This document shows, piece after piece, positions 5,081 to 48,924 of a stretch of DNA of 64,000 nucleotides; position 1 is the stretch's first letter; the number at the start of each line of letters is the position of its first letter. The notes under the pieces were generated by a model. It was not told the origin of the DNA and searched no databases. It saw nothing but the letters and a program-made list of their open reading frames with translations. The translations under genes and the position numbers were made by a program. This stretch comes from Thunnus maccoyii (lineage: Eukaryota > Chordata > Actinopteri > Scombriformes > Scombridae), in assembly GCF_910596095.1 (NCBI RefSeq), contig NC_056550.1, forward strand, positions 29,830,151-29,894,150. The letters are read 5' to 3'.

Positions 5081-7007
5081 CTATTCAAAGGCATCTCGGG
5101 GAATTTTGAGAACTTGCACCTTGATGTCAGGTTGGTAACTGTCTGACATGGTGGCTGTGATGGTATTAAGTTTACTTTCATGAGTCAGACTGCCGTCTGC
5201 AGCTTTACCTCTGACAAACTTTCTCTCTGCATCGTAATACATCTCCTTATAAAGACCACAATCACATTTTTTGGCCATGTCAAAGACTCCCACTGCATAC
5301 GAGTTAGAGTACAGGTTGAAATCAAAAGGATTAGAGAACATGACAGCTATTTTTCCATTGTTTTGATTTGTGGATCCATTCAGGAGATCGTAGGTGAAGA
5401 CTCCAACAGATCCAGAGGCTGTCTGAGGAGTCTTGATGAACAGAGCGCTGCCAGATTTAGAGGGGTCAAGCGTTGGTGGAAAAGGTGTTTTACAGAATCC
5501 ACTGTAAGTGTACCAACTGGTCACAGAAAGAAGAGAAACATTTTAGTGACTAAAAGACAACAGATAGATTCATTTTTGAGTGTTCAATACAGACATAACG
5601 TGTGGAGCTGGAGGCGGAGGGAAACTGCTAGTTTAGCTCCATTAAAAGAGAAAAAATAAACCTTTAACCAGACCCAAAGCAAAACAATTTTTTTAACACA
5701 ATATAAAGTCAATGACATCTCTGAATTGGGCTACAAATGTTTGCTGATGATACAGTTTTAGTTGTGGCAGCAAAAACAACTACTGTTGCTGCAGCCAAAC
5801 TAACAGACTGCTCGGGCAAGGTGGCACACTGACACTTCCTGCCAAACACTGAATGTTTGAAAAACTGTCTCTATGTGCTTCTCAGCCAGAAAAATCACAA
5901 TCACAAACACTTTACAAGTGAGTATAAAACACAGTGAACGAGAGACAGTTCAGGAGTTTAAGTATCTTGGAATTGTTTTGGACCCTCAGCTAAGATTTGA
6001 CAAACATAATAAAGTTAGGTAGAATCTTCAAACCTTTAGGCAAATCAGACACTGATTACCATTTCATACAACTCTATTATCTATACATGAAATGATATTT
6101 TCACATCTCTCATACTGCATAACCTCTTGGTCTCAGGCATTAAACCACTAACAAACCTTTCTAACCAAGCTATCAAAGTTCAAGAAATACCTGAGATTTC
6201 ATCATTACAATATTCTAAAAAGTATAATTTTCTCAGTTTTGATCATTTTATTAATTACTCCAACCTCACACTTACATTTAAATGTCTCCACCATCTAGCT
6301 CCACCCATCCTCAACACTTTCATGACTAGACGTCACTATACTGCCACTAACACCCGAAATACACCAGAAGGAAACTAGAATTAGACACTGTCAGACTTCC
6401 TTTGATCAACTGCGTTCTCCATTAAAGGCACAACCCTCTGAAATTCCCGACCTGCCAGTTCAAAGCAGGTTCTGGATTTTAAAATGTTTCCTACAACAGT
6501 CAAGTCCAGTTATCATGACACCAACTAGTCATTATTTGTTCATGCTAAAATGTTTTGTGATATGTTTTGTCTGTTGTCATTGATGGTTGCTGCTCTTGCT
6601 TTATTAATATATGCACTGATTTTAAACTGTAACATCTCATTTTAATGATTACTTGACCCGTCAATGCCCATCAAGGGACTGGTGTTGGACATTATTTTTG
6701 GTTATATACACATGTACAGCACATCGTACACTATTTCAGTTCAATTAACTGTGGGAACAAATTCTTTATTCCAGTTCAAAAGAAAGAAAATGAAACAATA
6801 AGAAAGAAATTGTTGTTGTGATTTACTCAATGTTGATATTGATTCTGATATCCCCAGGATTATTAGGAGAGGGTCTATGGGGTCAAATAATGTAAGAAAA
6901 GACAGACTGGGAGAACCTGAACTATGTACTCACCATGGGTTACACAGGATGTACTTAGAGGTCTTATTCTCAACCTCAATGCTGCACTGGCGATGAGTGT
7001 TTCCCAT
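5081..7007 (-). CDS. Actinoporin-like pore-forming protein (two coding exons)
   Basis: Two coding exons, 6934-7007 (ATG at 7007-7005; the exon itself begins at 7019) and 5081-5516, are joined over an intron with a GTGAGT donor and a pyrimidine-rich CAG acceptor. They give 169 codons plus TAG, in the usual range for fish actinoporin-like proteins. Family marks visible: SGSVGVFTYDL-type strand, the FDFNLYSN lipid-binding loop, and the LYKEMYY tyrosine cluster with RGK after it. Compared with sea-anemone actinoporins, the paired Trp of the lipid-binding loop is replaced, while the Tyr cluster is kept. Such proteins are small beta-sandwich proteins that bind membranes and oligomerise through an N-terminal helix; the role of fish members is not established. 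There is no signal peptide from this ATG. The intron carries a LINE relic. Start choice: first ATG in the exon, preceded by a splice acceptor, implying an upstream non-coding exon. Confidence 0.8.
5517..6933 (-). other. Intron of the actinoporin-like gene
   Basis: The donor GTGAGTAC is at 6933 downward and the acceptor TGACCAG ends at 5517, both on the minus strand. A codon is split two bases plus one across the junction and restores a continuous frame. Most of the intron (about 5715-6520) is an antisense non-LTR retrotransposon relic. Confidence 0.75.
5715..6520 (+). mobile_element. Degenerate non-LTR retrotransposon (reverse transcriptase C-terminal part)
   Basis: The plus strand reads, with several frameshifts and stops, as the segment from the catalytic FADDTV-like motif (near 5738), through EFKYLGIVLDPQLRFDKH (near 5955) to the C-terminal SFDHFINYSNLTLTFKCLH (near 6235). 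These are order-conserved landmarks of non-LTR reverse transcriptases; the clade was not resolved. It lies wholly inside the actinoporin-like intron, antisense to it. Confidence 0.65.
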
Positions 7008-13227: not shown

Positions 13228-15075
13228 GTAGCTGTAATTAAACCTCTTCTTAAGAAGCCTACTCTTGATTCAGGTGTTTTAGCCAATTATAGACCTATAT
13301 CTAACCTTCCATTTCTCTCTAAGATCCTTGAGAAAGCAGTCTCTAATCAGTTATGTGACTTTCTACATAACAATAGTTTATTTGAGGATTTTCAGTCAGG
13401 ATTTAGAGGCATCATAGCACAGAGACAGCACTGGTGAAAGTCACTAATGACCTCCTAACTGCATCAGACAAAGGATTTGTCTCTATACTTGTCCTGTTAG
13501 ATCTTAGTGCTGCATTCGACACAATTGATCATCAAATCCTTTTGCAGAGACTGGAACATTTAATTGGCATTAAAGGAACTGCATTTAGCTGGTTTAAGTC
13601 CTATTTATCAGACCGATTTCAGTTTGTACATGTTAATGATGAATCCTCCGTGAAGGCCAAAGTTAGATTTTCATTGTTATGCAGATGATACCCAATTATA
13701 TTTATCAATGAAGCCAGATGAAACCAATCAGTTAAACAAACTCCAAACATGCCTTAACGACATAAAGACCTGGATGACCTGCAATTTTCTACTACTAAAT
13801 TCAGATAAAACTGAAGTTATTGTGCTTGGCACTAAACACCTTAGAAACACATTATCTAATGATAAAGCTGCTCTGGATGGCATTACCCTGGCCTCCAGCA
13901 CCACCGTAAGGAATCTGGGAGTTATCTTTGATCAGGATATGTCCTTTAACTCCCACATAAATCAAATCTCAAGGACTGCCTTTTTTCACTTACGTAATAT
14001 CACAAAAATCAGGCACATCCTGTCCCTAAAAGATGCAGAAAAACTAGTTCACGCATTTATTACTTCTAGGCTGGATTATTGCAATTCCTTATTATCAGGC
14101 TGCTCTAACAAGTCTCTAAAGACTCTCCAGCTGGTCCAGAACGCAGCTGCACGTGTTCTGACTAAAACTAGAAAAAGAGACCACATTTCTCCCATTTTAG
14201 CTTCACTACATTGGCTTCCTGTAAAATCTAGAATAGAATTTAAAATCCTTCTCCTAACTTACAAAGCCCTTAATGGTCAAACACCATCATATCTTAAAGA
14301 GCTCATAGTACCGTATTATCCCACTAGAACACTGTGCTCCCAGTATGCAGCTTACTGGTGGTTCCTACAGTCTTTAAAAGTAGAATGGGAGGCAGAGCCT
14401 TCAGCTATCAGGCTCCTCTTCTATGGAACCATCTACCGGATTCAGTCCGGGGTGCAGACACCCTCTCTATGTTTAAGAGTAGGCTTAAAACTTTCCTTTT
14501 TGATAAAGCTTATAGTTAGGGCCGACCAGGCTCGCCTTGGATCAGCCCTTAGTTATGCTGCTATAGGCCTAGACTGCTGGGGGACTTCCCATGATGCACT
14601 GAGCTCCTCTCTCTTCCTCCTCCTCTCCATCTGTATGCATTCATGTAACATCAATGCATGTCACTAACTTTGCTTCTTCCCCGGAGTTTTTTGTGCTTTC
14701 TCATCTCACAGGAACCCCTGGGTTCTGGGCCGAGCCTTCGCGGTCCTTCACAGTCCTGATGGCATCCTTCCCTGTCTATTGATGCTTATACTTATTGTTA
14801 TTGTTATGATTGTTGTTCTCCTGTCCCCCCCCACCCTCTTCTCTCTCTCTCAACCCAACCGGTCAAGGCAGATGGCGCCCACCAAGAGCCGGGTTCTGCT
14901 TGAGGTTTCTACCCGTTAAAGGGGAGTTTTTCCTGCTGCTGCTCATGGGGGAATTGTTGGGTCTCTGTAAATTAAAGAGTTCGGTCTCGACCTGCTCTAT
15001 GTGAAAAGTGCCCTGAGATGACTTTTGTTGTGATTTGGCGCTATATAAATAAAAATTGATTGATTGATTGATTGA
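13228..15075 (+). mobile_element. L2 (family A), 5'-truncated, reverse transcriptase to 3' tail
   Basis: The copy begins in the reverse transcriptase region ([20 protein letters not shown]) and passes [19 protein letters not shown] and the YADD region. The C-terminal frame is open at 13708-14667, and the copy ends in a (GATT)n tail. A deletion of about 92 bp at about 13666, relative to the copy at 44231-49214, removes the PQG motif. A one-base loss near 13408 breaks the frame; the same loss is present in the 44231-49214 copy. Not able to encode an active enzyme. Confidence 0.9.
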
Positions 15076-17751: not shown

Positions 17752-17871
17752 TTAGTGTGGAGACGCTGCAGAGCGCCTCCTGCTGGTGATGATGGAGACC
17801 AGCATCTCCAACTGGTCCAGGTGCCGTTTAGTTTCCATCCTGATCAGCTCCCAGTACGTAGTACCGCCCCC
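17752..17871 (-). CDS. Interferon exon 5 (helix F and C-terminus)
   Basis: 120 bp including TAA at 17754-17752. It starts after GCATACAG with three Gly codons, followed by YWELIRMETKRHLDQLEMLV, the best-conserved interferon signature, and a basic tail with SRRRSAA. The 3' UTR with the AU-rich element follows. Confidence 0.85.
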   Translation of the reverse strand, partial: GGGTTYWELIRMETKRHLDQLEMLVSIITSRRRSAASPH

Positions 17872-20800
17872 CTGTATGCAGTACACAGTACTACAGTTAG
17901 TACACTCAGTACACACAATACTACAGTTAGTACACTCAGTACTACAGTCAATACACACAGTACTACAGTCAGTACACTCAGTACTACAGTCAATACACAC
18001 AGTACTACATCAGGACTTGTATTTACCGTACGGTCCAGAGCGCTTTTTTCCAGTGACTTGTAGTATTCGCTCAGCGTGACGTTGACTGGTTTTTCAACCG
18101 GAAGCTGAAAACAAAAACAGTTCTGAGTTTAATTCTGCAGTAAAACCTGAAGCTGAAACTCCCAGGACGAAGTACTGCCCTCCTGTATGCAGTACACAGT
18201 ACTACAGTCAGTACACTCAGTACTACAGTCAGTACACACAGTACTACAGTCAGTACACTCAGTACTACAGTCAGTACACACAGTACGACAGTCAGTACAC
18301 ACAGTACTACAGTCAGTACACTCAGTACTACACTCAGTACACTCAGTACTACAGTTAGTACACACAGTACCACAGTCAGTACACTCAGCACGACAGTCAG
18401 TACACACAATACTACAGTTAGTACACACAGTACTACAGTCAGTACACACAGTACTACAGTCAATACACTCAGTACTACAGTCAGTACACACAGTACTACA
18501 TCAGGACTTGTACTTACCATACGGTGCAGAGCGCTTTTTTCCAGTCTCTTGTAGTATTTTCTCAGCAGGACTTTAACTGGTTTTTCAATCGAAACCTGAA
18601 AACAAAAACAGTTCCGAGTTTAATTCTGCAGTAAAACCTGAAGCTAAAACTCTGACAGTCTCACTTAAAGCTTCAGGTGAAGTCAAACTGCTGACAGGAG
18701 TTAAAGTGTTTAAAGTATTTTTGTAAGTATTTGAGTACTCACGCATTTGTTGAGCTCCTCGTTCTGTCTGTCGATGGTGATCAGGAAGTTGGTCTCCTCG
18801 TTGGTATTCCAGGCAGCGGAGGAGCGGTTGCCGTGGTGATAGAGATCAGAAATAAGCTTCAGACTGTCTCTGATGAACAACAGCTGGGACTCCAACACCT
18901 GGACAGAGACAGACAGCTGTGAATCCTGGCTCTCTGATTGGCTGACAGAGCAGAGTGTCATCAGCGTAACAGTTTGTTTGTTTACTACAAATTTCACATG
19001 AAACAATAAGGACATATTTATGAACACAAGTCCGTCTTTTTTTGAATCTTGGCTCCAAAACCACATTATTCTGGTGGATCAGGTGTTTAATAACTGTGAC
19101 ATCGAGGGATTATGTAAAGGTTTCTGGTATTTGTGCTATTTATGCAACAACCGGAGGTTAATCATCAAACTGTGAGATGAATATTTTCATATTTTATATA
19201 TTATGTTGTGGAAGAAGAACTTGTGATTGTTTTATGTCAATGAAGAAAAAAATTGTGTTTAGATGTTTGTATGTTAATGTGTGAATAGTAACATACAGGT
19301 GAAGCAGTCAGTGTGTGTGACAGTACCTGTGTGTTCCTCATGCTTTGGTAGAGATCGTATGGAAAGGGAACTGGACTCTCCTCCTCAGTCAGCGGATCAC
19401 CCTGAAACATCAGCACAGTGACTCAGCTGTGTGTTAAACACAAACACCAATAAATATACAACGATTTTATGTGTTAGTGAATCTTTGCTGATTTAATTAA
19501 AACAAAAGCTTCCTAGCACTAAAGATGAAAACACACTAACAACACAACTAACAACACAACTAACAACACACTAACAACACACTAACAACACAACTAACAA
19601 CACACTAACAACACAACTAACAACACAACTAACAACACACTAACAACACAACTAACAACACACTAACAACACAACTAACAACACACTAACAACACAACTA
19701 ACAACACAACTAACAACACACTAACAACACACTAACAACACAACTAACAACACAACTAACAACACAACTAACAACACACTAACAACACAACTAACAACAC
19801 AACTAACAACACACTAACAACACACTAACAACACAACTAACAACACACTAACAACACAACTAACAACACAACTAACAACACACTAACAACACACTAACAA
19901 CACACTAACAACACAACTAACAACACACTAACAACACACTAACAACACACTAACAACACACTAACAACACAACTAACAACACACTAACAACACACTAACA
20001 ACACAACTAACAACACACTAACAACACAACTAACAACACAACTAACAACACACTAACAACACACTAACAACACAACTAACAACACACTAACAACACAACT
20101 AACAACACAACTAACAACACACTAACAACACACTAACAACACACTAACAACACACTAACAACACAACTAACAACACACTAACAACACAACTAACAACACA
20201 ACTAACAACACACTAACAACACACTAACAACACAACTAACAACACACTAACAACACACTAACAACACACTAACAACACAACTAACAACACACTAACAACA
20301 CACTAACAACACAACTAACAACACACTAACAACACAACTAACAACACACTAACAACACAACTAACAACACACTAACAACACACTAACAACACAACTAACA
20401 ACACACTAACAACACACTAACAACACACTAACAACACAACTAACAACACACTAACAACACAACTAACTACACACTAACAACACAACTAACAACACAACTA
20501 ACAACACACTAACAACACAACTAACAACACAACTAACGACACACTAACAACACAACTAACAACACACTAACAACACAACTAACAACACACTAACAACACA
20601 ACTAACAACACAACTAACAACACACTAACAACACACTAACAACACAACTAACAACACACTAACAACACAACTAACAACACAACTAACAACACACTAACAA
20701 CACAACTAACAACACACTAACAACACACTAACAACACACTAACAACACAACTAGCAACACACTAACAACACACTAACAACACACTAACAACACACTAACA

Positions 20801-23800
20801 ACACAACTAACAACACACTAACAACACAACTAACAACACACTAACAACACACTAACAACGCAACTAACAACACACTAACAACACACTAACAACACAACTA
20901 ACAACACAACTAACAACACAACTAACAACACAACTAACAACACACTAACTAACAACACAACTAACAACACAACTAACAACACAACTAACAACACAACTAA
21001 CAACACAACTAACAACACACTAACAACACAACTAACAACACACTAACAACACACTAACAACGCAACTAACAACACACTAACAACACAACTAACAACACAC
21101 TAACAACACACTAACAACACAACTAACAACACACTAACAACACACTAACAACACAACTAACAACACACTAACAACACACTAACAACACACTAACAACACA
21201 ACTAACAACACACTAACAACACAACTAACTACACACTAACAACACACTAACAACACAACTAACAACACAACTAACGACACACTAACAACACACTAACAAC
21301 ACACTAACAACACACTAACAACACAACTAACAACACAACTAACAACACACTAACAACACACTAACAACACAACTAACAACACACTAACAACACAACTAAC
21401 AACACAACTAACAACACACTAACAACACAACTAACAACACACTAACAACACACTAACAACACACTAACAACACAACTAGCAACACACTAACAACACACTA
21501 ACAACACACTAACAACACACTAACAACACAACTAACAACACACTAACAACACAACTAACAACACACTAACAACACACTAACAACGCAACTAACAACACAC
21601 TAACAACACACTAACAACACAACTAACAACACAACTAACAACACAACTAACAACACAACTAACAACACACTAACTAACAACACAACTAACAACACAACTA
21701 ACAACACAACTAACAACACAACTAACAACACACTAACAACACAACTAACAACACACTAACAACACACTAACAACGCAACTAACAACACACTAACAACACA
21801 ACTAACAACACACTAACAACACACTAACAACGCAACTAACAACACACTAACAACACACTAACAACACAACTAACAACGCAACTAACAACGCAACTAACAA
21901 CACACTAACAACACACTAACAACACACTAACAACACAACTAACTACACACTAACAACACAACTAACACAACTAACAACACACTAACAACACACTAACAAC
22001 ACACTAACAACACACTAACAACACAACTAACAACACAACTAACAACACACTAACAACACACTAACAACACAACTAACTACACACTAACAACACAACTAAC
22101 ACAACTAACAACACACTAACAACACACTAGCAACACACTAGCAACACACTAACAACACACTAACAACACAACTAACAACACACTAACAACACAACTAACA
22201 ACACAACTAACAACACACTAACAACACAACTAACAACACACTAACAACACAACTAACAAGACACTAACAACACAACTAACAACACAACTAACAACACACT
22301 AACAACACACTAACAACACAACTAACTACACAACTATCTACACAACTAACTACACAACTAACAACACACTAACAACACACTAACAACACACTAACAACAC
22401 AACTAACAACACACTAACAACACAACTAACAACACACTAACAACACACTAACAACACACTAACAACACAACTAACTACACACTAACAACACAACTAACAA
22501 CACACTAACAACACACTAACAACGCAACTAACTACACACTAACAACACAACTAACAACGCAACTAACAACGCAACTAACAACGCAACTAACAACACACTA
22601 ACAACACACTAACAACACAACTAACTACACACTAACAACACAACTAACACAACTAACAACACACTAACAACACACTAACAACACAACTAACAACACAACT
22701 AACAACACAACTAACAACACAACTAACAACACACTAACAACACACTAACAACACAACTAACAAGACACTAACAACACAACTAACAACACACTAACAACAC
22801 AACTAACAAGACACTAACAACACAACTAACAACACAACTAACAACACACTAACAACACACTAACAACACAACTAACTACACAACTAACTACACAACTAAC
22901 AACACACTAACAACACACTAACAACACACTAACAACACAACTAACTACACAACTAACTACACAACTAACAACACACTAACAACACACTAACAACACACTA
23001 ACAACACAACTAACAACACACTAACAACACAACTAACAACACACTAACAACACACTAACAACACACTAACAACACAACTAACTACACACTAACAACACAA
23101 CTAACAACACACTAACAACACACTAACAACACAACTAACTACACACTAACAACACAACTAACAACACACTAACAACACACTAACAACGCAACTAACAACG
23201 CAACTAACAACACACTAACAACACAACTAACAACACACTAACAACACACTAACAACGCAACTAACAACGCAACTAACAACACACTAACAACACAACTAAC
23301 AACACACTAACAACACACTAACAACACACTAACAACGCAACTAACAACACAACTAACAACACACTAACAACACACTAACAACACAACTAACAACACACTA
23401 ACAACACACTAACAACACACTAACAACACAACTAACAACACACTAACAACACAACTAACAACACACTAACAACACACTAACAACACACTAACAACACAAC
23501 TAACAACACACTAACAACACACTAACAACACACTAACAACACACTAACAACGCAACTAACAACACACTAACAACACACTAACAACACACTAACAACACAC
23601 TAACAACGCAACTAACAACACACTAACAACACATTAACAACACACTAACAACACAACTAACAACACACTAACAACACACTAACAACACACTAACAACACA
23701 ACTAACAACACAACTAACAACACACTAACAACACAACTAACAACACAACTAACAACACACTAACAACACACTAACAACACAACTAACAACACACTAACAA

Positions 23801-26800
23801 CACACTAACAAAACAACTAACAACGCAACTAACAACGCACTAACAACGCACTAACAACACACTAACAACACACTAACAACACAACTAACACACTAACAAC
23901 ACACTAACAACACACTAACAACACACTAACAACACACTAACAACACAACTAACAACGCACTAACAACGCACTAACAACGCACTAACAACACACTAACAAC
24001 ACACTAACAACACAACTAACACACTAACAACACACTAACAACACAACTAACAACACACTAACAACACACTAACAACACACTAACAACACAACTAACAACA
24101 CACTAACAACACACTAACAACACAACTAACAACACAACTAACAACACACTAACAACACACTAACAACACACTAACAACACACTAACAACACACTAACAAC
24201 ACACTAACAACACACTAACAACACAACTAACACACTAACAACACACTAACAACACACTAACAACACAACTAACAACACACTAACAACACAACTAACAACA
24301 CACTAACAACACACTAACAACACACTAACAACACACTAACAACACAACTAACAACACACTAACAACACACTAACAACACACTAACAACACAACTAACAAC
24401 ACAACTAACAACACAACTAACTACACACTAACAACACACTAACAACACACTAACAACAACGCAACTAACAACACACTAACAACACACTAACAACACACTA
24501 ACAACACACTAACAAGACAACTAACAACACACTAACAACACACTAACAACACACTAACAACACACTAACAAGACAACTAACAACACACTAACAACACACT
24601 AACAACACAACTAACAACACACTAACAACACACTAACAAAACAACTAACAACGCAACTAACAACGCACTAACAACGCACTAACAACGCACTAACAACGCA
24701 CTAACAACACACTAACAACACACTAACAACACAACTAACACACTAACAACACACTAACAACACACTAACAACACAACTAACAACACAACTAACAACACAC
24801 TAACAACACACTAACAACACACTAACAACACAACTAACAACACAACTAACAACACAACTAACTACACACTAACAACACACTAACAACACACTAACAACAC
24901 ACTAACAAAACAACTAACAACGCACTAACAACGCACTAACAACGCACTAACAACGCACTAACAACACACTAACAACACAACTAACAACACACTAACAACA
25001 CACTAACAACACACTAACAACACAACTAACAACACACTAACAACACACTAACAACAACGCAACTAACAACACACTAACAACACACTAACAACACACTAAC
25101 AACACACTAACAAGACAACTAACAACACACTAACAACACACTAACAAGACAACTAACAACACACTAACAACACACTAACAACACACTAACAAGACAACTA
25201 ACAACACACTAACAACACACTAACAACACACTAACAACACACTAACAACACACTAACAAGACAACTAACAACACACTAACAACACACTAACAACACACTA
25301 ACAACACAACTAACAACACACTAACAACACAACTAACAACACACTAACAACACAACTAACAACACACTAACAACACACTAACAACACAACTAACAACACA
25401 CTAACAACACACTAACAACACAACTAACAACACACTAACAACACACTAACAAGACAACTAACAACACACTAACAACACACTAACAACACACTAACAACAC
25501 AACTAACAACACACTAACAACACACTAACAACAACGCAACTAACAACACACTAACAACACACTAACAACACACTAACAACACACTAACAAGACAACTAAC
25601 AACACACTAACAACACACTAACAACACACTAACAACACAACTAACAACACACTAACAACACACTAACAACACACTAACAACAACGCAACTAACAACACAC
25701 TAACAACACAACTAACAACACACTAACAACACACTAACAAGACAACTAACAACACACTAACAACACACTAACAACACACTAACAACACAACTAACAACAC
25801 ACTAACAACACACTAACAACACAACTAACAAGACAACTAACAACACACTAACAACACACTAACAACACAACTAACAACACACTAACAACACAACTAACAA
25901 CACACTAACAACACACTAACAACACACTAACAAGACAACTAACAACACACTAACAACACACTAACAACACACTAACAACACACTAACAACACAACTAACA
26001 ACACACTAACAACACAACTAACAACACACTAACAAGACAACTAACAACACACTAACAACACACTAACAACACACTAACAACACACTAACAAGACAACTAA
26101 CAACACACTAACAACACACTAACAACACACTAACAACACAACTAACAACACACTAACAACACAACTAACAACACAACTAACAACACACTAACAACACACT
26201 AACAACACAACTAACAACACAACTAACAACACACTAACAACACACTAACAACACAACTAACAACACACTAACAACACAACTAACAACACACTAACAAGAC
26301 AACTAACAACACAACTAACAACACACTAACAACACACTAACAACACACTAACAACACAACTAACAACACAACTAACAACACACTAACAACACAACTAACA
26401 AAACAACTAACAACACACTAACAACACACTAACAACACACTAACAACACACTAACAAGACAACTAACAACACACTAACAACACACTAACAACACAACTAA
26501 CAACACACTAACAACACACTAACAACACAACTAACAACACACTAACAAGACAACTAACAACACACTAACAACACACTAACAACACAACTAACAACACACT
26601 AACAACACACTAACAACACAACTAACAACACACTAACAACACACTAACAACACACTAACAACACAACTAACAACACACTAACAAGACAACTAACAACACA
26701 CTAACAACACAACTAACAACACACTAACAACACACTAACAACACAACTAACAACACACTAACAACACACTAACAACACAACTAACAACACACTAACAACA

Positions 26801-29390
26801 CACTAACAACACACTAACAACACAACTAACAACACACTAACAAGACAACTAACAACACACTAACAACACACTAACAACACACTAACAACACACTAACGAC
26901 ACACTAACAACGCAACTAACAACACACTAACAACACAACTAACAACACACTAACAACACACTAACGACACACTAACAACGCAACTAACAACACACTAACA
27001 ACACAACTAACAACACACTAACAACACACTAACAACACAACTAACAACACACTAACAACACACTAACAACACACTAACAACACACTAACAACACAACTAA
27101 CAACACACTAACAACACACTAACAACACAACTAACAACACACTAACAACACACTAACAACACACTAACAACACAACTAACAACACACTAACAACACACTA
27201 ACAACACAACTAACAACACACTAACAACACACTAACAACACAACTAACGACACACTAACGACACACTAACGACACACTAACAACGCAACTAACAACACAC
27301 TAACAACACAACTAACAACACACTAACAACACACTAACAACACACTAACAACGCAACTAACAACACACTAACAACACAACTAACAACACACTAACAACAC
27401 ACTAACAACACACTAACAACACACTAACAACACAACTAACAACACACTAACAACACACTAACAAGACACTAACAACACACTAACAACACACTAACAACAC
27501 AACTAACAACACACTAACAACACACTAACAAGACAACTAACAACACACTAACAACACACTAACAACACAACTAACAACACACTAACAACACACTAACAAC
27601 ACAACTAACAACACACTAACAACACACTAACAACACACTAACAACACACTAACAAGACAACTAACAACACACTAACAACACACTAACAACACAACTAACA
27701 ACACACTAACAACACAACTAACAACACAACTAACAACACACTAACAACACACTAACAACACACTAACAACACACTAACAACACACTAACAACACAACTAA
27801 CAACACACTAACAACACAACTAACAACACAACTAACAACACACTAACAACACACTAACAACACAACTAACAACACAACTAACAACACACTAACAACACAC
27901 TAACAACACAACTAACAACACACTAACAACACACTAACAACACACTAACAACACAACTAACAACACACTAACAACACACTAACAACACACTAACAACACA
28001 ACTAACAACACACTAACAAGACAACTAACAACACACTAACAACACACTAACAACACACTAACAACACACTAACAAGACAACTAACAACACACTAACAACA
28101 CAACTAACAACACAACTAACAACACACTAACAACACACTAACAACACACTAACAACACAACTAACAACACACTAACAACACACTAACAAGACAACTAACA
28201 ACACAACTAACAACACACTAACAACACACTAACAACACAACTAACAACACACTAACAAGACAACTAACAACACAACTAACAACACACTAACAACACACTA
28301 ACAACACACTAACAAGACAACTAACAACACAACTAACAACACACTAACAACACACTAACAACACACTAACAACACAACTAACAACACAACTAACAACACA
28401 CTAACAACACACTAACAACACAACTAACAACACAACTAACAACACAACTAACAACACACTAACAACACACTAACAACACACTAACAACACACTAACAACA
28501 CACTAACAACACACTAACAAGACAACTAACAACACAACTAACAACACACTAACAACACACTAACAACACACTAACAACACACTAACAACACACTAACAAG
28601 ACAACTAACAACACAACTAACAACACACTAACAACACACTAACAACACACTAACAAGACAACTAACAACACAACTAACAACACACTAACAACACACTAAC
28701 AACACACTAACAACACAACTAACAACACAACTAACAACACACTAACAACACACTAACAACACAACTAACAACACAACTAACAACACAACTAACAACACAC
28801 TAACAACACACTAACAACACACTAACAACACACTAACAACACACTAACAACACACTAACAACACAACTAACAACACACTAACAACACACTAACAACACAC
28901 TAACAACACACTAACAACACACTAACAACACAACTAACAACACAACTAACAACACACTAACAACACACTAACAACACAACTAACAACACAACTAACAACA
29001 CAACTAACAACACACTAACAACACACTAACAACACACTAACAACACACTAACAACACAACTAACTAAACAGTAAGACTGACTTTAGCAAAACAGACAAAA
29101 CCAATGTTAGCTCATACAACAAGACCAGGACCTCTAACCCTTCCTCCAGGACCTCTAAAACTTCCTCCAGGACCTCTAACCCTTCCTCCAGGACCTCTAA
29201 AACTTCCTCCAGGACCTCTAACTCTTTCTCCAGGACCCTTGAAACTCCTCCAGGACCTGGTGTCAGTACTCACCATGAGCTTCAGGTGAGTCAGACATTC
29301 GTTGTTCACGTTACTAAACCGTTGATCGAGCCAATCACAGCAGAGAGCCGGCGTCAGGGCGCTGCAGAGGACGAAGAACACGAACAACAT
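17752..29390 (-). CDS. Type I interferon (five-exon teleost gene)
   Basis: Minus-strand coding exons: E1 29274-29390, E2 19327-19401, E3 18743-18898, E4 18518-18595 (E4a) or 18027-18104 (E4b), E5 17752-17871. All have GT/AG borders and join in phase 0. Using one E4 gives 181 codons, the usual teleost length; using both gives 207. E1 begins with a hydrophobic leader (MLFVFFVLCSALTPALC) followed by CDWLD. E2 has FPYDLYQSM, E3 ends AAWNTNEETNFL-ENKC-like text with a Cys, E4 is helix E (RKYYKRLEKSAL) and E5 carries the helix-F signature YWELIRMETKRHLDQLE. The position corresponding to the fourth interferon cysteine before YWE is Thr, so it fits the two-cysteine group I of fish interferons, although E1 has an extra Cys. 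The product is a secreted antiviral cytokine signalling through CRFB receptors and JAK/STAT. Oddities: giant satellite intron 1 and duplicated exon 4. Mammalian type I interferons lack introns; teleost ones have four. Confidence 0.87.
17882..18006. repeat. 21-bp minisatellite, interferon last intron
   Basis: Units of the type AGTACACTCAGTACTACAGTC, about six copies, between exon 4b and exon 5. It is the same family as 18190-18505. Confidence 0.9.
18027..18104 (-). CDS. Interferon exon 4, copy b (helix E, alternative)
   Basis: 78 bp, 26 codons (EKPVNVTLSEYYKSLEKSAL core), with an intact TTTTCAG acceptor and a GTAAAT donor, slightly weaker than copy a. It lies 491 bp from copy a. It may be spliced in place of copy a, together with it (in frame, adding 26 residues), or not at all; sequence alone cannot decide. 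Confidence 0.75.
18129..18182 (-). pseudogene. Remnant of interferon exon 5 between the two exon-4 copies
   Basis: GCATACAG followed by GAGGGCAGTACT matches the acceptor and first codons of the real exon 5 (17871). After about 25 bp the homology stops and the frame runs into intron sequence, ending at a stop at 18129-18131. If spliced to exon 4a it would add 17 residues (WEFQLQVLLQN at the end) and terminate, giving an interferon without helix F. It was created by the tandem duplication that also copied exon 4. Confidence 0.65.
18190..18505. repeat. 21-bp minisatellite between exon 4a and the exon-5 remnant
   Basis: About 15 copies of the same AGTAC-rich 21-bp unit as at 17882-18006, so it was carried along in the segmental duplication and then changed copy number. 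Confidence 0.9.
18518..18595 (-). CDS. Interferon exon 4, copy a (helix E)
   Basis: 78 bp, 26 codons, encoding EKPVKVLLRKYYKRLEKSAL and its short flanks. It has a TTTTCAG acceptor and a GTAAGT donor, both consensus, and phase-0 borders. Relative to copy b (18027-18104) it differs at 13 of 78 positions, 12 of them changing the amino acid; this copy is the more basic. Confidence 0.8.
18743..18898 (-). CDS. Interferon exon 3 (helices B to D)
   Basis: 156 bp, 52 codons, from VLESQLLFIRDSLKLI to RQNEELNKC. The acceptor is CTGTCCAG and the donor GTGAGTAC. The AWNT segment and the Cys at the exon end are typical of fish group I interferons. Phase 0 at both borders. Confidence 0.85.
19327..19401 (-). 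CDS. Interferon exon 2
   Basis: The 75 bp (25 codons) begin GGTGATCCG after a TTTCAG acceptor and end ACACAG before GTACTG. It encodes GDPLTEEE and PVPFPYDLYQ, the short exon-2 segment of fish interferons. It lies about 9.9 kb from exon 1 because of the satellite in intron 1. Confidence 0.82.
19530..29065. repeat. 9.5-kb satellite of mixed 11- and 12-bp units inside interferon intron 1
   Basis: An almost uninterrupted array of two words, CAACACACTAA (11 bp) and CAACACAACTAA (12 bp), in irregular order; roughly 800 units. The plus strand is nearly free of G; rare G-bearing variants (CAACGCAACTAA, CAAGACAACTAA, CTAGCAAC) mark higher-order duplications. For example, variants at 20754, 20860 and 20945 recur at 21479, 21585 and 21670, each exactly 725 bp away. 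The array fills most of the interval between interferon exons 1 and 2, so the primary transcript would carry about 9.5 kb of G/U-rich repeat. Confidence 0.97.
29127..29260. repeat. 21-bp minisatellite in interferon intron 1
   Basis: Units GGACCTCTAACCCTTCCTCCA and GGACCTCTAAAACTTCCTCCA alternate, about six copies, directly next to the exon-1 donor side. Confidence 0.9.
29274..29390 (-). CDS. Interferon exon 1 (signal peptide and helix A)
   Basis: ATG at 29390-29388, 39 codons, ending CTCATG followed by a GTGAGTAC donor. It encodes a leucine/phenylalanine-rich leader with probable cleavage after TPALC or TPAL, then CDWLDQRFSNVNNE, the conserved start of mature fish interferons. The first in-frame ATG before the hydrophobic run was chosen. 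Confidence 0.85.
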
Positions 29391-44833: not shown

Positions 44834-47693
44834 CTAACTATAAGCTTTATCAAAAAGGAAAGTTTTAAGCCTACTCTTAAACATAGAGAGGGTGTCTGCA
44901 CCCCGGACTGAATCTGGAAGATGGTTCCATAGAAGAGGAGCCTGATAGCTGAAGGCTCTGCCTCCCATTCTACTTTTAAAGACTGTAGGGACCACCAGTA
45001 AGCCTGCATACTGGGAGCGCAGTGTTCTAGTGGGATAATACGGTATTATGAGCTCTTCAAGATATGATGGTGCCTGACCATTAAGGGCTTTGTAAGTTAG
45101 GAGAAGGATTTTAAATTCTATTCTAGATTTTACAGGAAGCCAATGTAATGAAGCTAAAATGGGAGAAATGTGGTCTCTTTTTCTAGTTTTAGTCAATACA
45201 CGTGCAGCTGCATTCTGGACCAGCTGGAGAGTCTTTAGAGACTTGTTAGGGCAGCCTGATAATAAGGAATTGCAATAATCCAGCCTAACAAAAGCGTGAA
45301 CTAGTTTTTCTGCATCTTTTAGGGACAGGATGTGCCTGATTTTTGTGATATTACGTAAGTGAAAAAAGGCAGTCCTTGAGATTTGATTTATGTGGGAGTT
45401 AAAGGACATATCCTGATCAAAGATAACTCCCAGATTCCTTACGGTGGTGCTGGAGGCCAGGGTAATGCCATCCAGAGCAGCTTTATCATTAGATAATGTG
45501 TTTCTAAGGTGTTTAGGGCCAAACACAATAACTTCAGTTTTATCCGAATTTAGTAGTAGAAAATTGCAGGTCATCCAGGTCTTTATGTCGTTAAGGCATG
45601 TTTGGAGTTTGTTTAACTGATTGGGTTCATCTGGCTTCATTGATAAATATAATTGGGTATCGTCTGCGTAACAATGAAAATTTATGGAGTGTTTCCTAAT
45701 ATTATTACCTAAAGGAAGCATATATAAGGTGAACAGAATTGGTCCAAGTACAGAACCTTGTGGAACTCCGTGTCTAACTTTTGCCTTCACGGAGGATTCA
45801 TCATTAACATGTACAAACTGAAATCGGTCTGATAAATAGGACTTAAACCAGGTTAATGCAGTTCCTTTAATGCCAATTAAATGTTCCAGTCTCTGCAAAA
45901 GGATTTGATGGTCAATTGTGTCAAATGCAGCACTAAGATCTAACAGGACAAGTATAGAGACAAATCCTTTGTCCGATGCAGTTAGGAGGTCATTAGTGAC
46001 TTTCACCAGTGCTGTCTCTGTGCTATGATGCCTCTAAATCCTGACTGAAAATCCTCAAATAAACTATTGTTATGTAGAAAGTCACATAACTGATTAGAGA
46101 CTGCTTTCTCAAGGATCTTAGAGAGAAATGGAAGGTTAGATATAGGTCTATAATTGGCTAAAACACCTGAATCAAGAGTAGGCTTCTTAAGAAGAGGTTT
46201 AATTACAGCTACTTTAAAGGACTGTGGTACATACCCTGTTACTAAAGACAGATTGATCATATCTAGTAAAGAAGTGCTCACTAAGGGTAAGGCTTCCTTA
46301 AGCAGCCTAGTTGGGATGGGGTCTAAGAGACAGGTTGATGGTTTAGCTGAACAAATCATTGAAGTTAGTTCAGACAAGTCTACTGGAGAAAAACAGTCCA
46401 AATATATGTCAGGATTTACTGCCGTTACCAAGGTTCCTGTGTTTGGGGAGAGAACGGTGCCTGTTGAGGGCAGGAGGTGGTTAATTTTGTCTCTAATAGT
46501 TAGAATTTTATCATTAAAGAAGCTCATAAAGTCGTTACTACTGAGAGCTATAGGAATACATGGATCAGTAGAGTTATGACTCTTTGTCAGCCAAAGTGCT
46601 GAAAAGGAACCTAGGGCAGTTTTTATTCTCTTCTATTAATGCTGAGTAATAGGCAGTTCTGGCATTACAGATGGCCTTCCTATATGTTTTAACACTATCT
46701 TGCCAGACTAAGCGAGAATCTTCTACTTTGGTGGAACGCCAAATCCTTTCCAATTTTCGCGATGTTTGCTTTAATTTGCGGGTTTGGGAGTTATACCATG
46801 GAGCTAACCTCTTACGTTTTATTATCTTCTTTTTTAAGGGGGCGATGGAGTCGAGTGTTTGTCTTAGTGAGCCTGCAGCACTATCAATAAGATTATCAAT
46901 TTGGGAGGGACTAAAGTTAACATAAGAGTCCTCTGTAGTATTGAGACATGGCAGTGAATTCAGTATTGACGGAATTGCTTCCTTAAATTTATCTACAACA
47001 CTATCAGAGAGACATCTAGTGAGGACATTTTTATCTAATGGTGTGTAATCCAGTAATAGGAATTCAAAAGTTATTAAGTAATGATCTGATAAAATAGGAT
47101 TTTGTGGAAAAATTATTAAATGTTCAATTTCAATCCCATAAGTTAGAACAAGGTCTAGAGTGTGGTTAAGATGGTGAGTGGGATTATTTACACACTGAGA
47201 GAAGCCAATTGAGTCTAATAATGAGATAAATGCAGTGCTGAGACTGTCACTATCAACGTCCACATGAATATTAAAATCACCTACTATAATTACTTTATCT
47301 GTACTAAGGACTAAATACGACAAAAACTCTGAGAATTCAGATAGGAATTCAGAGTACGGGCCAGGAGGACGGTACACTATAACAAATAGAACTGGCTGTA
47401 AAGTTTTCCAGGTTGGCTGAGAGACTAAGAACAAGGCTTTCGAATGAGTTATAATTAAATTTAGGTCTAGGGTTGATGATTAGGCTTGAGTTGAAAATGG
47501 CTGCAACTCCTCCTCCTCGGCCAGTGTCTCGAGGTATATGAGTATTAATATGACTGGCGGGAGTGGATTCATTAAGGCTGACATATTCTTCATGACACAG
47601 CCAGGTTTCAGTGAGACAAAATAAATCAATACGATGATCTGAAATTAAATCGTTTACTAAAACTGCTTTAGATGAAAGAGATCTAATGTTCAA
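44834..47693 (-). pseudogene. L2 ORF2 (endonuclease, reverse transcriptase), frameshifted
   Basis: Segments: 47349-47693 endonuclease start (NIRSLSSK, FCLTETWL); 46574-47434 rest of the endonuclease (VIVYRPPG, IVGDFNIH, LSDHYLITF) and linker; 46003-46527 reverse transcriptase start ([20 protein letters not shown]); 44834-46006 catalytic part ([34 protein letters not shown]) and C-terminus to FDKAYS. Frame breaks fall at about 47400, 46580 and 46027. The last break is shared with the copy at 13228-15075. It has the domains for target-primed reverse transcription but cannot make a full protein. Confidence 0.88.
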
Positions 47694-48039: not shown

Positions 48040-48924
48040 TCATAGTATTGGTTTACTAATAAACTCAGCCATATTTCTAGATATGAGAGCAGCTCCATCC
48101 AGAGTGGGATGTATGCCGTGTCTCCTAATCAGACCAGGTCTTCCCCAGAAAGTCTGCCAATTATCTATGAAGCCCACATCGTTTGCTGGACACCACCTCG
48201 ACAACCAGCGGTTGAATTGTGACATGCGGCTATACATGTCATCACTGGTCAGATTAGGCAGCGGTCCAGAGAAAATTACGGAGTCCGACATTGTTTTAGC
48301 AAATGTACACACCGACTCAACATTAATTTTGGTGACTTCTGATTGGCGTAATCGGGAGTCGTTGCCGCCGACATGGATGACGATCGTACCATATTTACAC
48401 TTATTCTTAGCCAGCAGTTTTAAATTTGACTCAATGTCGCCCGCTCTGGCCCCAGGAATACATTTAACTATGGCTGCTGGTGTCGCTAACTTCACGTTTC
48501 TGACTATGGAGCTGCCAATAATCAGAGTTTGTTTCTCAGCGGGTGTGTCGCTGAGTGGGGAGAACCAGTTAGAAACATGAACTGGTTGGTGGTGAACCGT
48601 GGGCTTCTGCTTAGGGCTATGCTTCCTTCGGACAGTCACCCAGCCACCCTGGCTTCCCGGCTGCTCCGGAGCTACCGGGGGAGTGGGAGCTACGCTAGGT
48701 CGGCCCGCACCGGATACTAGGGGCTGGCTAACTATATTAGCAGCTGATTGTTTTTCCATGGTGCGGAGCCGCGCTTCCAATTCACTAAGCCTTGCCTCCA
48801 GTGGTGCAAATAGACTACACTTATTACACTTATCACTATCACTAAAGGAGGCAGAGGAGTAACTGAACATTTGGCACACCGAGCAAGAGAGAGCAGGAGA
48901 ACGAGAGGGAGAGAGAGAAGCCAT
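48040..48924 (-). CDS. L2 ORF1 with SGNH/GDSL-type esterase domain
   Basis: An intact 294-codon ORF. The N-terminus has a CxxC…CxxC pair (CSVCQ, CNKCS) and a short leucine-rich coiled coil ([20 protein letters not shown]). A Pro-rich linker follows, then an SGNH hydrolase domain: block [11 protein letters not shown] (Ser), block [11 protein letters not shown] and a C-terminal GIHPTLDG with the catalytic His. An esterase domain in ORF1 is known for CR1/L2-clade elements; the protein probably binds RNA and lipids or membranes. Preceded by the 5' UTR and followed by ORF2. Unlike ORF2 it has no frameshift. Confidence 0.88.

Follow-up and report, generated by a model that had tools for sequence, protein, structure and literature searches.

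Fish type I interferon genes are described as having five exons and four introns (PMC5332411, PMC5127012), and the alternative splicing described for them affects the 5' end and gives intracellular forms (PMC5332411, PMC5127012, PMC3828176). Since these genes still have introns, internal exon duplication is open to them, whereas it is closed to the intronless genes of mammals. Among human genes, mutually exclusive exon events are reported to be mostly ancient, and the paired exons tend to differ by conservative changes (PMC9741552). Among the open-access literature matches listed, none described an interferon gene with duplicated or exclusive exons, and no tuna publication on the interferon genes treated here was found in the open-access literature.

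We analysed a window of 64,000 nucleotides from Thunnus maccoyii, which is the whole stretch of DNA under study. An interferon gene in this window carries a duplication of its fourth exon that is real, unusual and polarised, and through which this gene may encode more than one interferon.

An IFNh-like gene with a second copy of exon 4

The minus strand of the window carries one fish type I interferon gene, IFNh-like, with the five-exon, four-intron layout of such genes plus one additional copy of exon 4. All introns are in phase 0, and all exon coordinates given here are window positions on the minus strand. Exon 1 (29274..29390, donor GTGAGT) is identical to the corresponding part of P0001 and, judging from the structure model of the sister protein P0002, probably encodes the signal peptide and helix A. 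By the same reasoning, exon 2 (19327..19401) would supply the AB loop and helix B, and exon 3 (18743..18898), which has the conserved Cys116 at its end, would supply helices C and D. These are followed by exon 4a (E4a, VSIEKPVKVLLRKYYKRLEKSALHRM, 18518..18595), coding for the DE loop and helix E, and by exon 4b (E4b, LPVEKPVNVTLSEYYKSLEKSALDRT, 18027..18104), a diverged second copy that is open and bounded by GT-AG sites. Exon 5 (17752..17871) codes for helix F and includes the stop codon. The 3' UTR is ATTTA-rich, and an AATAAA lies 188 nt past the stop codon. On the 5' side of the ATG there are a TATAAA and a single IRF-like element (GAAAATGAAA), both being consensus matches only.

The encoded protein matches the Pfam Interferon family (PF00143) with 44.1 bits for the form using E4a and 40.8 bits for the form using E4b, relative to a cut-off of 26.8. 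The P0002 model (mean pLDDT 87) has the type I interferon fold and matches solved fish and mammalian type I interferons, including grass carp IFNa, zebrafish IFN1 and croaker IFNd. The IFNh label is taken from named records: the matches with a subgroup in the record name (P0009, P0020 and P0022, 54-56% identical to P0002) are all IFNh. IFNh is described with six cysteines (PMC5332411), whereas the E4a form has four from Cys17 on (Cys17, 18, 31 and 116). A 207-aa protein of Thunnus maccoyii, P0001, corresponds to the window gene letter for letter, with both exon-4 copies in series.

Intron 1 of the window gene is filled by a 9.5-kb array of an 11-bp repeat (window 19530-29064) and reaches 9.9 kb, whereas it measures about 1.2-1.3 kb in genes 1 and 2, two sister genes described below. 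Elsewhere in the window, a 147-aa ORF on the minus strand (5081-5524) matches Pfam Anemone_cytotox with 51.7 bits and presumably belongs to a fish actinoporin-like gene. Pieces of a non-LTR retrotransposon lie at 44834-47434 and 48040-48924 (minus strand) and include reverse transcriptase, endonuclease and a GDSL-like ORF. In that scan, Pfam gave no match for a plus-strand ORF at 13708-14667, which by eye repeats part of the 44834-46006 ORF.

Extent of the duplication

The earlier note had proposed that the helix-E exon of this gene exists twice, 491 bp apart, and the locus bears this out. Both copies are 78 nt long and in phase 0, with an AG acceptor, a GT donor and no stop codon; the distance from start to start is 491 bp; and in the P0002 model exon 4 accounts for the last part of the DE loop together with helix E (residues 125-142). 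Its counts are reproduced as well, with differences at 13 of 78 exon positions (12 replacements and one silent GTT/GTC change at codon 7), at 2 of 57 positions in the intron before the exon and at 2 of the first 36 in the intron after it.

The duplication extends further than the earlier note had recognised, from the last 57 bases of intron 3 into the first 24 bases of exon 5. Because the duplication reaches into exon 5, a truncated exon 5 sits between E4a and E4b. Copy 1 (18159..18652, minus strand) comprises 57 nt of intron 3, E4a, intron 4a and this pseudo-exon 5, whereas copy 2 (17848..18161, minus strand) comprises 57 nt of intron 3, E4b, intron 4b and the first 24 nt of exon 5. The two meet at a GAG microhomology, where the exon-5/intron-3 junction has GAG common to both ends. 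The resulting order is exon 3, E4a, a 21-bp minisatellite, truncated exon 5, the end of intron 3, E4b, minisatellite and exon 5. The minisatellite makes up most of intron 4a (14.9 copies, 18194..18504, minus strand) and most of intron 4b (6.1 copies, 17886..18013, minus strand). Overall, the duplication consists of two 260-nt stretches that are 92% identical, which is far above chance. Pseudo-exon 5 (18159..18182, minus strand) repeats the initial 24 nt of exon 5, and the acceptor before it is identical over 25 nt. Its frame continues as EGSTSSWEFQLQVLLQN to a stop (ORF 18129-18182); use of its acceptor would therefore add 17 residues before termination.

A false duplication introduced during assembly is extremely improbable. 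Minisatellite introns and the 9.5-kb satellite in intron 1 make this repeat-rich gene hard to assemble, but 17% of exon bases differ between the copies, they are joined by a specific exon-5/intron-3 junction, and no other E4b was found in the genome. In addition, P0001 contains both copies, though it may itself derive from this assembly. A partial internal duplication covering the end of intron 3, exon 4, the minisatellite-bearing intron 4 and the start of exon 5 would have left the two exon-4 copies. Given the GAG junction and the nearby minisatellite, it may have arisen by misaligned exchange.

Sister genes and the age of the duplication

A search of the genome (782 Mb in 54 contigs) with E4a or E4b as query yields five exon-4 places with either query, and these belong to four interferon genes on a single contig. 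E4b is found in the window gene only, whereas genes 1, 2 and 4 each have a single exon 4. Gene 1 (contig 29797186-29799784), gene 2 (29822716-29825414, corresponding to P0002) and the window gene, which is gene 3, form a tandem of three. Gene 4 (30204731-30208543) lies on the opposite strand and corresponds to P0003 through exon 4; its exon 5 is absent from the contig, which ends in minisatellite.

The three tandem genes recur every 25-26 kb as near-identical units (contig 29794000-29894150). Units 2 and 3 are 98.0% identical, with 218 mismatches in a 16,973-column match (about 1.3% mismatch). Gene 4 is located about 345 kb from the tandem, near the contig end and in opposite orientation. Between genes 3 and 4, exon 1 is identical and exon 2 matches at 74 of 75 bases, whereas 24 of 156 bases differ in exon 3 and 18 of 78 in exon 4, with the divergence running from the middle of exon 3 through exon 4. 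This pattern is likely to be a mosaic produced by gene conversion.

When gene 4 serves as the outgroup, the 13 differences between E4a and E4b can be polarised. Six are derived on a branch common to gene 1, gene 2 and E4a (exon positions 7, 21, 24, 28, 29 and 70), and five are derived in E4b (positions 4, 36, 37, 49 and 50). Position 77 is derived in E4a alone, and position 1 has three states. Maximum likelihood trees group genes 1 and 2 with E4a apart from E4b, with bootstrap values of 96 for the exon and 100 for exon plus flanks. The tree from flanks only has a bootstrap of 83 for this branch, which is of zero length with no flank change on the stem, and so the flanks give no independent support to an older split. 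Neutral divergence within the duplication is 8/155 with pseudo-exon 5 included, compared with about 1.3% between gene units 2 and 3 (p=0.001), or 4/131 when pseudo-exon 5 is left out (p=0.09).

Together, the exon tree and the neutral divergence indicate that the exon duplication probably preceded the gene triplication, although the flanks alone do not show that the E4b lineage is the older; genes 1 and 2 would then have lost one exon-4 copy later. Recent decay of a copy of E4a was considered and is disfavoured, since E4b keeps six outgroup states that are lost in E4a and in genes 1 and 2. The derived base at exon position 64 (Ala22) is common to gene 1, E4a and E4b but not gene 2, and together with the mosaic of genes 3 and 4 this suggests that conversion has probably mixed these genes.

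Conversion confined to the exon could be an alternative account of the exon/flank pattern. In this history, another interferon exon served as donor to E4b, or to E4a along with exon 4 of genes 1 and 2, and the copies differ by old paralogue divergence rather than by changes that followed the duplication. Such an origin is consistent with the mosaic of genes 3 and 4, in which exon 1 is identical and exons 3 and 4 are diverged. It also agrees with the six exon changes and zero flank changes on the stem of genes 1, 2 and E4a, and with the residues V3, N8, T10 and D24 that E4b shares with gene 4. However, no donor emerged from the genome search, where the best match to E4b besides itself is 86% identical and gene 4 is 81% identical, the region past the contig end and the missing exon 5 of gene 4 lying out of its view. 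Moreover, the sites that E4b shares with gene 4 and those that it shares with E4a interleave, as they would for retained ancestral states. We therefore consider this history unlikely. It concerns where the exon came from, and thus overlaps with each of the readings of E4b as a cassette, a pseudoexon or an exchangeable exon that are weighed below.

Divergence and selection

The argument for diversifying selection made in the earlier note proved half right. The excess of exon changes over flank changes stands, at nominal significance (p 0.0014-0.029) that varies with the flanks chosen. The 13/78 of the exon was set against flanks with 2/57 (p=0.024), 3/90 (p=0.004), 7/114 (p=0.029), 7/178 (p=0.0014) or 12/243 differences (p=0.0024), and against the 8/155 that includes pseudo-exon 5 and its acceptor side (p=0.0065). 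Random draws place at least 13 of the 16 differences in the exon 0.3% of the time. Because the flank choices share sites and the flanks are short, we take this excess as suggestive rather than decisive.

The contrast between replacement and silent changes carries less weight. By the Nei-Gojobori method, E4a and E4b differ at 12 of 59.5 replacement sites versus 1 of 18.5 silent sites, which is not a significant difference (p=0.28), and finding at most one silent change among 13 has a probability of 0.15 under the mutation model, or 0.07 with transitions weighted. Between E4a and gene 4, over the end of exon 3 and exon 4, pN (0.229), pS (0.206) and the divergence of intron 3 (24/147, or 0.16) are about equal. 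These rates are near neutrality, suggesting that the family evolves loosely in this region, and strong diversifying selection is therefore not shown. Furthermore, 6 of the 13 differences fall on the branch shared by E4a and genes 1 and 2, where there are 6/78 exon versus 0/90 flank changes (p=0.009), while the E4b branch has 5/78 versus 2/90 (p=0.25). The replacement surplus of E4b would be made up of changes in two exon lineages, with relaxed or positive selection as a partial cause.

Predicted splicing of the two copies

Every use of exon 4 leaves an open product: 181 aa with E4a only, 181 aa with E4b only, 207 aa with both and 155 aa with neither. The introns of 413 and 155 nt have GT-AG sites throughout, and an exon of 78 nt keeps the frame. 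At this locus, we saw no feature that would prevent joint inclusion of E4a and E4b, be it a frameshift, an intron that is too short, incompatible splice sites or a pairing structure. The array in intron 4a folds on itself, but an RNA structure that loops out one exon was rejected, as the region is not clearly more stable than its shuffles (z-score -1.37, with 1 of 20 shuffles as stable). Also, the proposal that alternative use of helix E yields two interferons has no direct support, since the exons fit in series and P0001, the sole public model found, includes the two of them. As this record is a prediction, its series arrangement may simply reflect two open exons. A search with the E4b form returned four candidates, all from Thunnus, with E4b in P0001 only; the candidates are clusters at 90% identity, and a further tuna record with E4b could therefore be hidden in one.

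The account we prefer, with about an even chance of being correct, is that E4a is a constitutive exon, whereas E4b is a cassette that keeps the frame and is either skipped or added to E4a in series, but not exchanged for it. E4a, which is near-identical to exon 4 of the sister genes, would give the working 181-aa interferon. Inclusion of E4b in series would give a protein of 207 aa with an extra helix before helix F, and otherwise E4b would be skipped.

The donor sites bear on whether E4b is included at all. The E4b donor (GTAAAT) carries a G to A change at position +5 and is weaker than that of E4a, with predicted U1 pairing of -5.5 versus -10.5 kcal/mol. Along with the loss of common residues at positions 1, 2, 12, 13 and 17 and the single exon 4 of genes 1, 2 and 4, this is what one would expect of a pseudoexon that is being lost, is never or hardly included and accumulates neutral changes. 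The open frame of E4b does not count as evidence of use, because 13 changes would be expected to leave no stop by chance 55% of the time. However, a simple weight matrix scores the E4b donor at 2.45, which is better than two other donors of the gene, those of exon 3 (0.34) and exon 2 (0.02), and easy skipping is therefore not predicted. In addition, divergence of the exon is three to five times that of its flanks, and neutral decay cannot exceed the neutral rate, but on the E4b branch by itself the excess is not significant (p=0.25). Loss of E4b as a pseudoexon seems rather unlikely.

Helix E and its residues

Over exon 4, the net charge (K+R-D-E) goes from +6 in E4a to 0 in E4b. To compare residues we used 101 relatives outside Thunnus, which are the 108 proteins minus P0001, the fragments P0015, P0016 and P0108, and three other tuna proteins. 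Leu1 of E4b occurs in none of 100 relatives, with Val there in 88 of 100; Ser17 occurs in 1 of 95, with Arg there in 52 of 95; and Ser12 and Glu13 occur in 5 and 2 of 95. E4a keeps residues common in fish interferons, but at positions 8 and 26 E4b has the common residue (Asn in 29/95 and Thr in 52/94) and E4a a rare one (4/95 and 2/94). A model of P0001 with the two copies in tandem has a mean pLDDT of 83; the E4a helix reaches 81-83, whereas the E4b helix is poorly defined, with blocks at 52-66.

On a helical wheel, positions 11, 14, 15, 18, 22 and 25 of the hydrophobic side are the same in E4a and E4b, the buried side being deduced rather than read from coordinates. Positions 10, 13, 17 and 24, which form one 60-degree sector, are all changed, two of them on the E4a side. 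Helix E is described as lying on the IFNAR1 side in human type I interferon (PMC8980424). These points speak for mutually exclusive exons. The gene would then make two interferons of 181 aa, with helices A-D and F in common, a different helix E and a different receptor affinity. Both exons are open and spliceable, they have diverged more than their flanks, and they are tandem homologous exons of equal phase and length, as expected for such a pair. Yet there is no sign of an exclusion mechanism, the fold of the region is not unusual, and the public model carries both exons in series. In addition, charge is lost or reversed at three positions where relatives mostly have a basic residue, unlike the changes reported for human exclusive pairs (PMC9741552). 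Exclusive use is accordingly improbable in our judgement.

The Arg at exon position 12 aligns with the Arg of LRRYF in human IFN-omega and of VRKYF in an IFN-alpha2 (mouse), and we take it to be Arg120 of human IFN-alpha2. This numbering agrees with PMC8980424, where Arg120 corresponds to Asn126 of grass carp IFNa. For an antagonist based on R120E, IFNAR1 binding is reported to be below detection (PMC4497658), and R120A is reported to lower affinity 60-fold (PMC8529159). As proof of a dead receptor site, the loss of this Arg is weakened by the Asn of grass carp IFNa (PMC8980424); among the relatives, P0007 has Gly and P0012 has Glu at this position. It is very unlikely, in our view, that the E4a form is an agonist and an E4b-only form has the opposite effect as a built-in partial agonist or antagonist. 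Such a form, with a neutral exon 4 that lacks the Arg aligned with Arg120, would bind one receptor chain and bind the CRFB5/IFNAR1 side weakly.

Comparison with known systems

The duplication is young, it is polarised, and three sister genes serve as controls, so the fate of a duplicated cytokine helix can be tested directly here. Use of E4b would mean that splicing adjusts the interferon strength of a single gene, and its use in series with E4a would show that the helical cytokine fold accommodates an entire additional helix.

Models from wrasses hint that events of this kind recur. A loose helix-E pattern occurs twice in 2 of the 108 proteins, namely P0001 and P0043 from Labrus bergylta. A stricter pattern gives a second, different match in P0087 (Cyprinodon) and misses many proteins altogether. 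The Labrus records P0043 (NCBI, 230 aa) and P0051 (UniRef, 192 aa) are identical save for 38 extra residues that P0043 has ahead of the normal helix E and that include an exon-4-like segment, VSSTSRRVDVKLRNCNRRLTRSILDRT. Compared with Thunnus, the Labrus case is known from protein predictions and its two copies look more diverged by eye; presumably, it is an independent event. Three further predictions (P0019, P0026 and P0033), from genera that we take to be wrasses, have an in-frame insert of about 36 residues resembling the sequence on either side of the junction between exons 3 and 4. In ungapped comparison with this region, 18/36 residues are identical in P0019 and 9/36 in P0033, P0026 being unscored. 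These inserts are possibly an independent duplication of helix D.

Among described genes, the IFNh genes of percomorphs (Larimichthys, Siniperca and Lateolabrax records) share five coding exons and phase-0 introns with the window gene, as well as a CC near the start of the mature protein and the conserved Cys116. The window gene differs from them in having a second exon 4 and four cysteines rather than six. Like trout IFN1 and other fish interferons, it has introns and may give more than one protein, but the variation in those genes is at the 5' end. With tandem duplicated exon substitutions, it shares adjacent homologous exons of equal length and phase. Compared with the mutually exclusive exons described in human (PMC9741552), the pair in the window is younger, no exclusion mechanism is seen, and both exons can be included.
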